Shown here in pieces: positions 9,800-14,904 of a stretch of DNA of 34,520 bases. The stretch is from Acidobacteriota bacterium. Lineage in GTDB: Bacteria; Acidobacteriota; Polarisedimenticolia; Gp22-AA2. How positions within the stretch are numbered: the stretch's first letter is position 1; the number at the start of each line of letters is the position of its first letter. The stretch covers positions 1-34,520 of the forward strand of contig JAGYID010000053.1 of assembly GCA_018606725.1 (NCBI GenBank). Reading direction: 5' to 3'. The notes beneath the pieces were generated by a model. It was not told the DNA's origin. It searched no databases and saw nothing but the letters and a program-made list of their open reading frames with translations. The translations under genes and the position numbers were made by a program.

Positions 9800-10552
9800 A
9801 TGTCACGAATACTGAATGCATCAAAAGTGTTCATGGCCATGCTTGTCGCGGTCGCCCTCACGGGGTCGATACAGGCAGCCGGCACTGGTACCCTCGACAC
9901 CAACAGAGATGCCACGTACGCCTCGGTGAAGGCAATCGAGGACGCTCAGCGGATCCTGCAGCAGAATCGGTACCTGGCGCCCGGCAGCTATCACAAGGGT
10001 GAACTGGACAACACGACCATCAGCGCGATCACCCGCTTCCAGGGTGCCCATGATCAGCGCCAGACCGGCGGGCTCAACTTCGAGACCACGGCTCTCCTGT
10101 GGTCCCACACGATGGCCCCGGGAACCGCGGTTGCTGCGCAGACGAGCCCGAACTACGGCTACATGCCGGCCACCGCCTACCGGCCGAGTTCAGAGCCGCT
10201 GTTCGCCGAAAAGAGACCGCTGATCCTGGAAGGCGTCGAGTTCGACATCGACAAGGCGACGCTCCGGCCCGAGTCGCGGAACACGCTCGACCAGGTCGCC
10301 GCATCGCTGCGGACCTGGCCGAATGTCTCCGTCGAGATCCAGGGCCACACCTCCGAGCCCGGCACCACGATCCACAACATGGATCTCTCCCAGCGAAGGG
10401 CGGAGGCCGTGAGGGCGTATTTCGTCTCCGAGGGCATTGATGGAGGCCGCCTCGTGGCAAACGGTTACGGCGAAACCAGATTCATCGCCGACAACTCCAC
10501 GGCCGCAGGCCGGCAGGAGAATCGCAGAGTCGAGCTGCACGAAATCTTCTAG
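9800..10552 (+). CDS. OmpA-family protein with N-terminal PG-binding-like domain
   Basis: 250 aa from ATG 9800, which follows CTGGAGGT and begins a signal peptide (MSRILNASKVFMAMLVAVAL...QAAG); an earlier in-frame start at 9746 would put 18 residues before it. Residues about 48-110 form a peptidoglycan_binding_1-like domain (AQRILQQNRYLAPGSYHKGE). Residues about 145-250 form an OmpA domain (VEFDIDKATLRPESRNTLDQ, IQGHTSEPGTTIHNMDLSQR, NGYGETRFIADNSTAAGRQE, NRRVELHEIF). It shares domain order with the protein at 5985-6659, but its OmpA domain is closer to that at 13716. The usual GHTD is GHTS here, as it is GHCS in the 13.7-kb copy. Confidence 0.92.
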   Translation: MSRILNASKVFMAMLVAVALTGSIQAAGTGTLDTNRDATYASVKAIEDAQRILQQNRYLAPGSYHKGELDNTTISAITRFQGAHDQRQTGGLNFETTALLWSHTMAPGTAVAAQTSPNYGYMPATAYRPSSEPLFAEKRPLILEGVEFDIDKATLRPESRNTLDQVAASLRTWPNVSVEIQGHTSEPGTTIHNMDLSQRRAEAVRAYFVSEGIDGGRLVANGYGETRFIADNSTAAGRQENRRVELHEIF

Positions 10553-10577
10553 ACGGTCTTGATTCGAGTCGCAGTCG

Positions 10578-10610
10578 CGAGGCCCCGGGGGCAGACCCCA
10601 CGGGGCCTCG
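10578..10610 (+). terminator. GC hairpin after the OmpA-like gene
   Basis: Perfect 10-bp stem CGAGGCCCCG (10578-10587) / CGGGGCCTCG (10601-10610), 25 bp after the stop codon. A related GAGGCC...GGCCTC hairpin follows the OmpA gene at 13716 and, degraded, the OmpA remnant at 2317. No T-run follows. Confidence 0.6.
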
Positions 10611-10642
10611 TTGCGTGTGCGGCGCCTCCTGGCGCGCCGCTG

Positions 10643-10709
10643 TCAGGAGTTTCTGACAATCGATTCAGAGAACTCCCGACTTGTGGGGTTCGCGCGGCGG
10701 GGGTAAGAA
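10643..10709 (+). promoter_or_regulatory. Tandem-palindrome promoter of the basic-peptide / RsbT-kinase-regulator set
   Basis: Units TCAGGAGTTTCTGA (10643-10656, one base short) and TCAGAGAACTCCCGA (10665-10679), 22 bp apart. TTGTGG occupies the -35 position (10681-10686), then a 17-bp spacer and TAAGAA (10704-10709). Predicted start near 10716, 46 nt before the first ATG. Confidence 0.65.
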
Positions 10710-10761
10710 CATTCCTGGCAGGGAGGAACATGTCTCCCGTGCCACAGATGGAGGCAGGACT

Positions 10762-10881
10762 ATGGCCAAGAAGAGCAGAGGCGGACGAATGACGGCAGCG
10801 AAGGGAAGAGCGGCACGGAAGTTAGGGGGCAAGGGGCGGGTGAAAACTCGGCGGGCCGGAAAACGCATCATGAGCACCTGA
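10762..10881 (+). CDS. 39-residue, extremely basic small protein
   Basis: ATG 10762 follows GATGGAGGCAGGACT, a good ribosome binding site. The peptide has 39 residues with 15 Lys/Arg and no acidic residue (motifs AKKSRGGRM, AKGRAARK, GKGRVKTRRAGKRI). The composition is like histone H1 tails or small nucleic-acid-binding proteins, and low-complexity K/R/G/A sequence suggests it is unstructured. It has its own upstream tandem-palindrome promoter and lies 104 bp before the RsbT-like gene. No family recognised; DNA or RNA binding is inference from charge alone. Confidence 0.7.
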   Translation: MAKKSRGGRMTAAKGRAARKLGGKGRVKTRRAGKRIMST

Positions 10882-10985
10882 ACGTTTCCGCGTGGTCCTC
10901 GAGACGGCCTTCCGGCGTCCTCCAGCGCAAGGGATTGATCTTCAATCCGCAGGGTTGGATAATATGGCCTACCCAGCTGGTATGG

Positions 10986-11387
10986 ATGATTCTCGAGGAT
11001 CACGTGGACATCGTCAACGAAGACGACGTGATCGCCGGTCGCCGGAAGGTCCGAATGCTTGCCGCGGAAATCGGCTTCTCGCCCGCTGAGTGGGCGATGC
11101 TGGCCGCGGTCATCACGGAACTGTCGCGCAACATCCTCGACTATGCCGGGCGTGGAGAGGTGCTCTTTCACGCCATCGAGGACGGAGGCCGGCGCGGCAT
11201 CGCCGTCATTGCCCGCGACCACGGACCGGGCATCCCGAACATCAAGGAAGCGCTGCAGGCTTCGTACTCCGTGGCGGGCGGCCTGGGCGTCGGTCTGAGA
11301 GGGGTCAAGGGGCTGATGGACAGCCTCGAGATTATCTCCGTCCCGGGCAAAGGGACGACGGTGACCGCCCGGAAGTGGCTGTCATGA
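10986..11387 (+). CDS. RsbT-like serine-protein kinase / anti-sigma switch protein
   Basis: 133 aa from ATG 10986, the usual RsbT length; a TTG at 10935 would add 17 residues and has AAGGG in front, so it is an alternative. Single GHKL ATPase domain: N-box TELSRNILDYA, G1 DHGPGI, G2 GGLGVGLRGVKGLMD, G3 GKGTTV. The opening HVDIVNEDDVIAGRRKVRML is typical of RsbT. RsbT phosphorylates STAS-domain stressosome proteins and switches on the RsbU phosphatase. Here the next gene carries an RsbU_N domain fused to a histidine kinase, so the RsbT-like protein probably binds and activates that kinase (inference). Confidence 0.88.
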   Translation: MILEDHVDIVNEDDVIAGRRKVRMLAAEIGFSPAEWAMLAAVITELSRNILDYAGRGEVLFHAIEDGGRRGIAVIARDHGPGIPNIKEALQASYSVAGGLGVGLRGVKGLMDSLEIISVPGKGTTVTARKWLS

Positions 11388-11418
11388 AGCCGTCGGCGCG
11401 CCGTCAAGGAGGCGGAGC

Positions 11419-12348
11419 GTGAGGGAGATCGCGGGCGAGCTGCAGCGAGAGTATTCCGACGCCCTCCGGGACTATCTCGCTCGTCCCAACGAGCGCGCGC
11501 TTCGGCGGGTGTACGAAATGGGACGCGGAACGCTGACCGACGGCGTGGGCGTGCTCGGGATCGCGGCGCTCCATCACCAGGCCCTGAAGGACGTCATCCC
11601 CGGCCTGTCGGAGGAGATCGAGGAAGCGCTGCTGATCAAGCGCGCCGAGGACGTGTTCATCGAGAGCCTGATGCCGTTCGAAATGAGCCATCGCGCCTTC
11701 CGCGAAGCCATCGCGGTGCTGCGCCGGATGAACGAGCGCATCGAGCAGGAGGCCAAGCGAATTGCACACGCGCTCCACCAGGAGGCCGGGGGGCTGCTCG
11801 CCTCGACCCACCTCGCCCTCGAGGAGCTGTCCCACGACCTTTCGCCCCAGGGGAGCGAGAGGCTGACCCTCGTCAGGCAGCTCTTGGATCAGATGGACGA
11901 GCAGCTCAGGCAGCTGGCCCACGAGATCCGGCCGACCATCCTGGACGACCTGGGCCTGCTCCCGGCGCTCAATTTCCTGGCCAAGGGGATGTCGAAGCGG
12001 TCGGGGCTGGCGATCACCGTCGAGGGATCGACGGAAGGCCGGCTGCCCCCGGCTGTGGAAACGGCGCTCTACCGGAATGTCCAGGAGGCGCTCAATAACG
12101 CGATCAGGCACGCCCAGGCGGGCGCAGTCGCGGTGATGGTGAGCAGGGAGGCGCGCGCGGTCCGCTGTTCGATCCGCGACGACGGAATCGGCTTCGACGT
12201 GTCCGCGGTGACCGCAGCAAACGGAGAGCGGGGCCTGGGTCTCGTCGGCATGCGCGAGCGCCTGGAATTCCTGCGCGGGACGCTCGCGATCACCTCGGCG
12301 CCGGGTCAGGGCGCTGAATTACTGATGCACATACCGCTCGAAGGCTGA
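11419..12348 (+). CDS. RsbU_N - HisKA_3 histidine kinase with non-canonical H-box
   Basis: 309 aa from GTG 11419 behind AAGGAGG. Residues 8-85 match the RsbU N-terminal RsbT-binding domain (EYSDALRDYL, LHHQALKDVI). Residues 108-175 are the HisKA_3 dimerisation region with His120, and 210-305 the ATPase domain (QEALNNAIRHA, DDGIGFD, GLGLVGMRERLEFL). His120 is followed by QEAGG instead of the usual D-x-x-x-Q, so both the acidic neighbour that helps phosphotransfer and the phosphatase Gln are missing. It lacks membrane segments and should be cytoplasmic. The RsbT-like protein is encoded just upstream and a NarL-type regulator starts 3 bp downstream, making a likely partner-switch-to-two-component relay. 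Confidence 0.9.
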   Translation: MREIAGELQREYSDALRDYLARPNERALRRVYEMGRGTLTDGVGVLGIAALHHQALKDVIPGLSEEIEEALLIKRAEDVFIESLMPFEMSHRAFREAIAVLRRMNERIEQEAKRIAHALHQEAGGLLASTHLALEELSHDLSPQGSERLTLVRQLLDQMDEQLRQLAHEIRPTILDDLGLLPALNFLAKGMSKRSGLAITVEGSTEGRLPPAVETALYRNVQEALNNAIRHAQAGAVAVMVSREARAVRCSIRDDGIGFDVSAVTAANGERGLGLVGMRERLEFLRGTLAITSAPGQGAELLMHIPLEG

Positions 12349-12350
12349 TC

Positions 12351-12983
12351 GTGCCGTTACGAGTTCTTCTCGCCGACGACCACGCGATGTTCATCCAGGC
12401 GCTTCGGGGCCTCCTGGAGCGCGAGGGTGTCGTTGTGGTCGGAGAGGCCCTGGACGGTCGAGAGGCGGTGCGGCTCGCCGGGAAACACAGGCCGGACGTG
12501 GCCGTCCTCGACCTGACGATGCCCCTGTTGAACGGTCTGGATGCCACCCGGGGAATCCGCAAGGTATCGCCGGATACGAAAGTGATCATTCTGACGAGGC
12601 ACACCGAGGAGCAGTACGTCGTCGAGGGGCTGCGGGCCGGGGTCAACGGCTTTCTCCTGAAGACCAAGGCCGCGGCGATCCTCGTCAAGGCGATCAAGGA
12701 CGTCTCCGCCGGCGCGCTGTACATGAGCCACGCCCTTTCGCCGGCCCTCCTGCAGGCCTATCTCGCGAGGGAAGAGTTGCGCACCACTCCCCTGAGCGGG
12801 CGCGAGCGCGAGGTTCTGCAGCTCGTCGCCGAGGGAAAGACGATGAAGGAGATCGCCACGCTCCTCGGGATCAGCGTCAAGACCATCGAGACCCACCGGA
12901 TGCGGCTCATGGGAAAGCTCGACATCCACGAGACGGCCGGCCTCGTCCGCTATGCCATCCGCCAGGGACTGATCGAAGCCTGA
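12351..12983 (+). CDS. NarL/FixJ-family response regulator
   Basis: 210 aa from GTG 12351, 2 bp after the kinase stop, so translation is coupled. Receiver domain 3-120 with acidic pair Asp9/Asp10, phospho-acceptor Asp54 (VAVLDLTMP), switch Thr in ILTRHT and Lys in FLLKTKA. LuxR-type helix-turn-helix at 143-208 (LSGREREVLQLVAEGKTMKE, GISVKTIETHRMRLMGKL). Cognate kinase is expected to be the upstream gene. Because its operon carries a tandem-palindrome promoter, and NarL-family dimers bind short palindromes in tandem, it is a leading candidate for the activator of that promoter family (inference). Confidence 0.93.
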   Translation: MPLRVLLADDHAMFIQALRGLLEREGVVVVGEALDGREAVRLAGKHRPDVAVLDLTMPLLNGLDATRGIRKVSPDTKVIILTRHTEEQYVVEGLRAGVNGFLLKTKAAAILVKAIKDVSAGALYMSHALSPALLQAYLAREELRTTPLSGREREVLQLVAEGKTMKEIATLLGISVKTIETHRMRLMGKLDIHETAGLVRYAIRQGLIEA

Positions 12984-13019
12984 GGCCGCGCATCGATCCA
13001 GTCCCGCGAACGCCCCATA

Positions 13020-13595
13020 TCAGCCACTCCCGAGGAGACCCGTCTTGAGGCTCTGATTCGGCGGTTTCGCGCCCAGCCAGATGGTGAACAGGGCGCGGCC
13101 GAAGTCGGCGCCGGGGATCGTCCCTTTGGACTCGCCCTGGACCTTCACGACGACACCTGTCCCGGGCAGGTAGGTGAGCGTCATCTCATCTCCCTTTCTG
13201 ACGGTGTCCGGCATCCACGCGCGAAGCGTTGCGATGCGATCCTCCAGGGCGGGGAAGTCCTCCCCGATGTTCGCCTTGAGGCTGTCGTCCCACTCCTTGA
13301 TGATCCTTTTCCGGCTGACCGAGCGGACGAAGACGAAGACGATCCTCTTCGGGAGTTCGGCGCGGAGGATCGCGTCGGCGTCGGATGACTTCGCCTGCAA
13401 GTAAAGGCCCGCGACGTACACTTTGATCTTGAGCCAGGTCGCCTCGCGCAGACCGATGCCGTTGAGCACAAGTGTCGACTCATCGACCGCCGTCCGCTCG
13501 GGGAGGGTGACTCCGGCCAGCTCTCCGGCCCACGCCGGCGCCGCCAGGCACGCCGTCAGGTACGCCGCCAGCGCCGTCCCGCCTCGACTGATCAT
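13020..13595 (-). CDS. Exported chalcone-isomerase-like protein
   Basis: 191 aa. Signal peptide 1-23 ends at AWAG. The rest matches the chalcone isomerase-like fold (LNGIGLREATWLKIKVYVAG, LYL, ELPKRIVFVFVRSVSRK, LTYLPGTGVVVKV, GADFGRALFTIWLG). Bacterial periplasmic members have no proven isomerase activity and may bind fatty acids or similar ligands. It lies downstream of the OmpA/TSP3 gene on the same strand but beyond a strong hairpin at 13626-13655, so its expression is probably partly separate. I see no clear ribosome binding site beyond GCGCACGG. Confidence 0.82.
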   Translation of the reverse strand: MISRGGTALAAYLTACLAAPAWAGELAGVTLPERTAVDESTLVLNGIGLREATWLKIKVYVAGLYLQAKSSDADAILRAELPKRIVFVFVRSVSRKRIIKEWDDSLKANIGEDFPALEDRIATLRAWMPDTVRKGDEMTLTYLPGTGVVVKVQGESKGTIPGADFGRALFTIWLGAKPPNQSLKTGLLGSG

Positions 13596-13715: not shown

Positions 13716-14210
13716 CTATTCGATGACGTGCAGCTCGACTCTGCGGTTCAGCTGCCGGCCTGCCTTCGTGTCGTTGCCGGCGATCGGCCTGGTCTCGCCG
13801 TAGCCGTTGGCCTCGAGACGGGAGGCGCTGATGCCGCGGGAGACGAGGTAGTCCTTGACGGCAGCGGCCCTGCGCCGAGACAGGTCCATGTTGTGTTCGT
13901 CACTGCCGGGCTCGGAGCAATGGCCCTGGACCTCCAGCCTGGTGTCGGTCCAGTCCTTGAGCGATGCGGCGACCTCGTCCAGCGTGGTGAGCGATGCCGG
14001 CCGGAGCGTATCCTTGTCGATGTCGAATTCGACCCCGTGCAGGACCACCGCCTTGCGCTCACGGAGAATCTGGATCAGCGGCACCGCGGCGGCGGGGAAC
14101 GGGCATCCATCCTCGTCCACTTTCACGCCGCGAGGCGTGTAGGGGCAGAGGTCGACGCCGTCGGGCACACCGTCTCCGTCGCTGTCCAGCGGGCAGCCCC
14201 ACTGATCCAC
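13716..14210 (-). CDS. OmpA/TSP3 protein, C-terminal fragment (frameshifted)
   Basis: 164 residues open from ATG 14210, but the true N-terminus is in another frame (14123-14863). The fragment begins within thrombospondin-3-like Ca-binding repeats (DSDGDGVPDGVDLCPYTPRG, KVDEDGCP) and continues with an OmpA domain (VEFDIDKDTLRPASLTTLDE, VQGHCSEPGSDEHNMDLSRR, NGYGETRPIAGNDTKAGRQL, NRRVELHVIE). This barrel-TSP3-OmpA order is that of OprF-like major porins. Peptidoglycan anchoring is expected if a full-length protein is made. A frameshift near 14230-14260 separates the two parts. It could be a real mutation, a sequencing error, or less likely programmed. Confidence 0.8.
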   Translation of the reverse strand: MDQWGCPLDSDGDGVPDGVDLCPYTPRGVKVDEDGCPFPAAAVPLIQILRERKAVVLHGVEFDIDKDTLRPASLTTLDEVAASLKDWTDTRLEVQGHCSEPGSDEHNMDLSRRRAAAVKDYLVSRGISASRLEANGYGETRPIAGNDTKAGRQLNRRVELHVIE

Positions 14211-14863
14211 GGGCCATCCCCTCGGGGTTCGGTCCGGTCGTAGACGCCGTCACCATCCGTGTCGGTGTCGGGCGTCGTGGCGGCCGGAGTGGCGGCTTGA
14301 GGAGCACCGAAGACCCAGCCGATTCCGAAGGTGCCCTCGATGTTCTGCTGCGTCGAGTCGATGTCGCCGCCCACGGGCGTCAGGACGACGCGGCCATCGA
14401 GACGCATGTCGAAGTGGGGGGTCAGGAACCAACGGAGACCGCCGCCGGCGTTATAGCCCACGTCCGACCGGTCACCGTAGGCGCGAATGTTGACGTGTTC
14501 GCAGCCGACCCCCGCGGTCAGGAATGGTCGGAAGCTGTCCCCCTCGTTGAAGTTGTACAGCATGTTGAGGCGGTAGCAATCGAGGGTCATGTTCTCGTCC
14601 CGCAGACCGAGGCTCTCGGGGAATTTCGTCAAGGTGGGGAGACGCTGCCAGGCAAGCTCGGCGCTCCAGTGCGGCGTGAAGAAGTAGCCGGCGCGGGCGC
14701 CATAGAGAAAGTCGTTCCTCGGGCGGTACGGGCCGTAGTCGTCCAGCCAGCCGTAGCCGCCGAAGAGGCCCAATTCCCAGTCGCCCTTGTCACCGTTGTC
14801 CGCCAGGGCCGGGACCGCCGTCAGGAGCAGCGCGGCGATGACGGTCAGAATCATTTTTCGCAT
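14123..14863 (-). CDS. OmpA/TSP3 protein, N-terminal beta-barrel part (frameshifted)
   Basis: ATG 14863 follows AAGGAGATCTC and starts a signal peptide (MRKMILTVIAALLLTAVPALA). Residues about 22-195 form an OmpA-like eight-strand barrel (WELGLFGGYGWLDDY, YGARAGYFFTPHWSAELAWQ, FLTAGVGCEHVNIRAY, GGLRWFLTPHFDMRLDGRVV), ending in FGIGWVFG. Then comes the first Ca-binding repeat (DTDTDGDGVYD), after which the frame diverges: the tail from about RTEPRGDG to LAA is out-of-frame sequence. It follows the DUF3494 lipoprotein gene by 41 bp and is very probably in its operon, so both would be driven from 15744-15811. Confidence 0.85.
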   Translation of the reverse strand: MRKMILTVIAALLLTAVPALADNGDKGDWELGLFGGYGWLDDYGPYRPRNDFLYGARAGYFFTPHWSAELAWQRLPTLTKFPESLGLRDENMTLDCYRLNMLYNFNEGDSFRPFLTAGVGCEHVNIRAYGDRSDVGYNAGGGLRWFLTPHFDMRLDGRVVLTPVGGDIDSTQQNIEGTFGIGWVFGAPQAATPAATTPDTDTDGDGVYDRTEPRGDGPWISGAARWTATETVCPTASTSAPTRLAA

Positions 14864-14904
14864 GAGATCTCCTTCTGCTGTGTGCGGAGCAGGCACCTCA
14901 AGCC

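Follow-up and report, generated by a model that had tools for sequence, protein, structure and literature searches.

Elsewhere, RsbT is a switch kinase that is set free from a megadalton sensor, the stressosome. What, then, might an RsbT-like protein do at a locus where that sensor is not encoded beside it? The window, the whole 34,520-nucleotide stretch of DNA analysed here, comes from an Acidobacteriota genome (G000) and carries three consecutive genes on the plus strand. The first (10986..11387, ATG start), recognised from its open reading frame and by Pfam, encodes an RsbT-like GHKL switch protein of 133 aa. The second (11419..12348, GTG start) encodes a soluble histidine kinase of 309 aa, made up of an RsbU_N domain, a helical linker, a DHp domain and HATPase_c. 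The third (12351..12983) encodes a NarL/FixJ-type response regulator of 210 aa with a receiver and a GerE HTH. Open reading frames and Pfam matches confirmed the gene order, domains and coordinates of the original prediction, and an arrangement of three genes with these domains is far beyond chance. The genes share a strand and the gaps between them are short (31 bp between rsbT and the kinase gene, 2 bp between the kinase and regulator genes), so an operon is likely. A ribosome-binding site, AGGAGGCGGAGC, which includes AAGGAGG, sits 5′ of the kinase GTG at 11406..11418 (+). Promoter-like matches were too weak for interpretation, and no Rfam RNA was matched within 10400-13100. A short way 5′ of rsbT there is a very basic 39-aa ORF, MAKKSRGGRMTAAKGRAARKLGGKGRVKTRRAGKRIMST, at 10762-10881 (+), with a GGAGG site. 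Elsewhere in the window (13716-14896, minus strand) a beta-barrel-like N-terminus (14123-14896) and an OmpA-like C-terminal part (13716-14210) overlap in different frames; by eye, this is an apparent frameshift in an OmpA-type porin.

The RsbT-like protein exceeds the Pfam cut-offs for HATPase_c (38.9 bits) and HATPase_c_2 (37.2 bits). A profile built from RsbTs matches it with 196.5 bits, the window sequence itself being part of that model. The rsbT products of Listeria and Lysinibacillus sigB operons are among its best annotated matches (43-46% identity), and a genome-wide search found no second RsbT in the window genome. We considered horizontal acquisition from another phylum; the tree groups the protein with the phylum's own RsbTs and not with foreign ones, but the support is weak (51/78), so such an origin is conceivable. 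The features of the GHKL fold are present: GPGI (DxGPGI), GLGVGL (GLGxGL) and the ATP-site residues N49 and D78. R19 and R23 are also retained, all four residues being given in a numbering that we take to match the B. subtilis RsbT sequence. In B. subtilis, R19 and R23 of RsbT have been implicated in RsbU binding (PMC12143880). Equivalents of both arginines are absent from one Vibrio RsbT included in the comparison, and the downstream kinase of V. vulnificus is reported to have no RsbU_N (Heinz et al., PMC9237108), which fits the arginines marking RsbU_N partners; this is a correlation only, as the two observations concern different strains. A further contact pair, RsbT D92 and RsbU R91, is uninformative because it varies across relatives. 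With N49 and D78 in place, RsbT could also have a protein-kinase role, with the histidine kinase or the regulator as its substrate, instead of being a co-activator, and kinase action of RsbT on its neighbours has been suggested for Vibrio D1, which is without RsbU_N (Heinz et al., PMC9237108). The window, however, has both RsbU_N and the arginine pair that the Vibrio RsbT compared does not have, and we regard such a role here as very improbable.

The kinase carries RsbU_N (PF08673), the RsbT-docking domain, at residues 11-71 (11449..11631, +), with 43.1 bits against a Pfam cut-off of 25.5. A profile search of the window genome gave 45.5 bits for this domain and found only this one; a search of plasmids gave no RsbU_N match. 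The N-terminus of the kinase matches the B. subtilis RsbU structures 1w53, 2j6y, 2j6z and 2j70 in a PDB search, and E25 aligns with RsbU E24, the equivalent of which is invariant among relatives. HATPase_c scores 55.6 bits. HisKA_3 (PF07730) falls below its cut-off (18.8 bits against 24), and an H-box with the phosphoacceptor position His120 (nt 11776-11778) is present. A single-sequence AlphaFold model of the kinase was poor (pLDDT ~43; 42.9), and the sole match of the whole kinase in a genome-contig database was an unrelated Chloroflexi kinase. The regulator is canonical in its scores (Response_reg 99.4 bits, GerE 63.6 bits) and its receiver motifs are complete (DDH, DLTMP, LTRH, LLKTK). There is no Hpt domain and no second receiver, so the pair is a simple two-component system and not the phosphorelay of the original prediction. 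Like NarX/DesK-type HisKA_3 kinases, the kinase combines a HisKA_3-like DHp and HATPase_c with a NarL partner; it differs from them in being soluble, in its RsbU_N input domain and in having HQEAGG instead of HDxxxQ.

Fusion of RsbU_N to a histidine kinase beside rsbT has precedent. According to Heinz et al. (2022), outputs of several types are encoded downstream of rsbRSTX; some of them carry RsbU_N, and histidine-kinase/receiver proteins are among them (PMC9237108). A study in eLife (2025) modelled one RsbU_N histidine kinase (NreB, MBI3545564.1) and proposed that RsbT has the same ordering effect on the linker of such proteins as on that of RsbU (PMC12143880). The predicted link from RsbT to the RsbU_N kinase is thus well supported by this precedent, by the contact residues and by the gene order in relatives; the pairing itself is already published (PMC9237108, PMC12143880) and its claim to novelty falls. 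An alternative sigma factor is dispensable in the published RsbU_N-kinase systems too. Those systems lie in operons with stressosome genes (MBI3545564.1 being considered here as a protein only), whereas the window combines the absence of rsbR, rsbS and rsbX with a divergent RsbT and loss of the kinase DxxxQ motif.

Comparison with other known systems places the module further. In the B. subtilis RsbRST-RsbU-RsbV-RsbW-SigB pathway RsbT docks on RsbU_N, orders the linker and activates the output, and by analogy the window RsbT may do the same; the window output, in contrast, is a kinase and NarL regulator, with no PP2C, RsbV/W or SigB in the operon and no RsbR/RsbS. Moorella thermoacetica MtG (Quin et al. 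2012, as far as the account in PMC12143880 goes) likewise joins RsbU_N to a non-phosphatase output, but that output is a diguanylate cyclase (GGDEF) and a stressosome is present. In neighbourhood, the only level compared, the sigB operon of Lysinibacillus (pMGMM7) resembles the window in having rsbT and a PP2C gene with no adjoining rsbR/rsbS; it differs in its classical RsbU/V/W/SigB output. The Lysinibacillus locus (L081 3289-7030) reads MazF-RsbT-PP2C-STAS-RsbW-SigB, with no rsbR/rsbS between MazF and RsbT. A Stenotrophomonas record (CP031730), possibly mislabelled, has the same gene order and a close RsbT.

Similar RsbU_N kinases were found in 13 of 297 genomes of the phylum, G000 counted. 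The standard order, RsbR-RsbS-RsbT-RsbX (SpoIIE/PP2C-type)-RsbU_N kinase, with the NarL regulator next in most, occurs at ten loci (G161, G193, G019, G208, G137, G092:C50, G119, G095, G066 and G188); RsbR and RsbS of G161 are 80-96% and 70-95% identical, respectively, to those of the other loci. The kinases are of HisKA_3-like, HisKA, PAS-HisKA_3 and hybrid types, which indicates a modular output. There are four exceptions to the order: the window (RsbT-kinase-NarL); G201, where RsbT directly precedes an RsbU_N-PAS protein, probably a kinase, that is cut by the contig end; a second locus of G092 (G092:C42); and G177, with a weak RsbU_N-like match only. We also noted an arrangement with two tandem RsbTs at L136 (G322:C303, 1809-5909), which reads RsbR-RsbS-RsbT-RsbX-second RsbT-[RsbU_N-GAF-sigma54 activator-Fis]; a fusion of RsbU_N to a sigma54 enhancer-binding protein was not found as an output in the literature searched. 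At L135 (G019:C99, 4434-7181, minus strand) a solitary second RsbT adjoins a GAF-GAF-sigma54 activator without RsbU_N; the contig has no STAS gene, and G019 also has a full stressosome.

In nearly all relatives with an RsbT-kinase locus, rsbS lies directly 5′ of rsbT. The region of the window where rsbR and rsbS sit in relatives (10553..10985, +) is fully assembled with no N, and tblastn found no remnants of rsbR, rsbS or rsbX in the window, this region and the gap between rsbT and the kinase gene included. A genome-wide search with PF01740 recovered two STAS proteins from the window genome in total, neither of them RsbR or RsbS. The sensitivity of this profile is adequate, since in ten relatives it recovers both RsbR and RsbS next to the kinase, with scores of about 40-63 bits. 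RsbX is also absent from the operon: the genome encodes six SpoIIE-type proteins, none of them there. The original prediction had supposed a stressosome input and had named a genome devoid of stressosome proteins as a refuting result; as no stressosome protein was found in the genome, the link fails here, with the caveat of the ~5% of the genome that is unassembled. This genome is a MAG of 95.17% completeness, so RsbR and RsbS could be missing by chance, and an ordinary stressosome pathway with both genes in the unassembled part would be in keeping with the retained R19/R23 and catalytic residues of RsbT. Against this, the usual site of rsbS is assembled and holds other sequence, the profile does detect both proteins in relatives, and the RsbT is the most diverged in an 18-sequence set, which would be unexpected with unchanged partners; we consider this explanation quite improbable.

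Both STAS proteins are encoded on contig C80 (L004 6958-8455) beside an RsbW-like ATPase; one is RsbV-like and the other, a weak STAS match, is without the usual Ser motif. A rewired partner switch, in which one of these proteins has replaced RsbS and holds RsbT, has the existence of the pair in its favour, and changes in the RsbT N-box and ATP-lid stretches (see below) could mirror a changed substrate. However, relatives that also carry full stressosomes have STAS pairs of this kind too, at similar spacing, so the C80 cluster, which seems common to the family of the window genome, looks like a separate partner switch and probably has its own partner. Since the second protein also lacks the Ser motif, rewiring appears improbable.

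The window RsbT deviates at 9 of the 37 columns that are invariant in 11 relatives, the next highest count being 4. The lineage-specific changes (A18G, T41A, S44T, A47S, M90L, G93S, L102V, P105R and R109G) fall in the N-box and ATP-lid stretches. Within the 18-sequence set it deviates at 5 of 29 columns (next 3), and T41A and S44T occur in none of 18 other RsbTs, which include sequences from Firmicutes, Deinococcus, Streptomyces and one archaeon. The kinase, with deviations at 5 of 57 invariant columns, is ordinary. The terminal branch of RsbT is 1.61 (median 0.51) and that of the kinase 0.36 (median 0.72). The kinase branch is shortened because its sister, the kinase of G092:C42, is in the tree, and the fairer test leaves the sister out. 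The RsbT/kinase ratio of ML distances is then 0.97-1.44 in 7 of 7 pairs with G000 and 0.40-0.93 in the other 21; measured against its kinase, the window RsbT has a rate about double that seen in the other genomes, a pattern that comes from one sequence, as G000 is the sole genome of its genus in the comparison. We rejected stressosome loss alone as the cause of this acceleration. In G201, too, RsbT and a probable RsbU_N kinase occur without R, S and X, but the RsbT there shows no unusual divergence; losing the stressosome is therefore insufficient to explain the divergence.

Rapid evolution of RsbT could also signal a vestigial module, in which the loss of R, S and X has left the RsbT arm to drift and the kinase, whether functional or not, no longer depends on RsbT. 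The sister kinase is the closest homologue of the window kinase (support 99/95) and is encoded in a kinase-NarL locus with no RsbT nearby. It has 11 changes at otherwise invariant positions, about half of them inside RsbU_N (Y38S, E39D, R42L, G48E and G50D, with E93G just after), and its PF08673 score is below the cut-off. Decay in so close a relative, together with loss of the D and Q that follow the kinase His, is what a vestigial module might produce. In the window, however, the RsbT ORF is intact, its catalytic and contact residues are present and 28 of the 37 invariant positions are kept; the operon is tight, and the RsbU_N score is no lower than those of RSTX-linked kinases. That RsbU_N is intact with RsbT and degraded without it speaks in favour of the two working together in the window, and we judge a vestigial module unlikely.

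The kinase itself has changed at the H-box, AHALHQEAGG (11764..11793, +; in context IAHALHQEAGG), where the DxxxQ motif of HisKA_3 kinases has been lost, its D being replaced by Q121 and its Q by G125. RSTX-linked homologues have HD in all cases and HDxxxQ in nearly all (G119 has HDxxxP), and the other kinases of the window genome mostly have HDxxxQ. Among the homologues compared, only the window kinase and G092:C42 (HNEAGG) share the loss. The HisKA_3 Gln places the water for dephosphorylation of the regulator, and when the catalytic residue is exchanged, phosphatase activity disappears while kinase activity persists (PMC5231405, PMC11502775). The kinase is thus predicted no longer to dephosphorylate its NarL regulator, its phosphatase activity having probably been lost. 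The D-to-Q change directly after His120 could in addition weaken autokinase activity.

With a probability of about 0.55, we favour the reading that the window module is a stressosome-free derivative of the RsbRSTX / RsbU_N-kinase / NarL arrangement in which RsbT serves the kinase as a dedicated co-activator. RsbT would bind the RsbU_N dimer and adjoining linker; we infer that its effect on the kinase is activating. Binding would order the coiled-coil linker, making the DHp/catalytic core competent for autophosphorylation of His120, from which phosphate would pass to the NarL regulator. As RsbR, RsbS and RsbX are absent, RsbT would no longer be sequestered by a stressosome, and the output might be set by the level or expression of RsbT or by some antagonist. 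More tentatively, and with doubts that outweigh our confidence, RsbT may be the permanent activating subunit of a phosphatase-less kinase, in a lineage that shows stepwise detachment of a stressosome output. The steps would be loss of R, S and X, divergence of RsbT, loss of the kinase phosphatase motif and finally, as in G092:C42, loss of RsbT and decay of RsbU_N.

In bacteria with stressosomes it is difficult to tell apart the two roles of RsbT, as kinase of RsbS/RsbR and as activator of RsbU_N proteins. A genome with the activator and its target but without the substrates of RsbT would be a natural separation-of-function case. It would also offer a small, soluble three-protein system in which the published proposal that RsbT orders the kinase linker may be tested.
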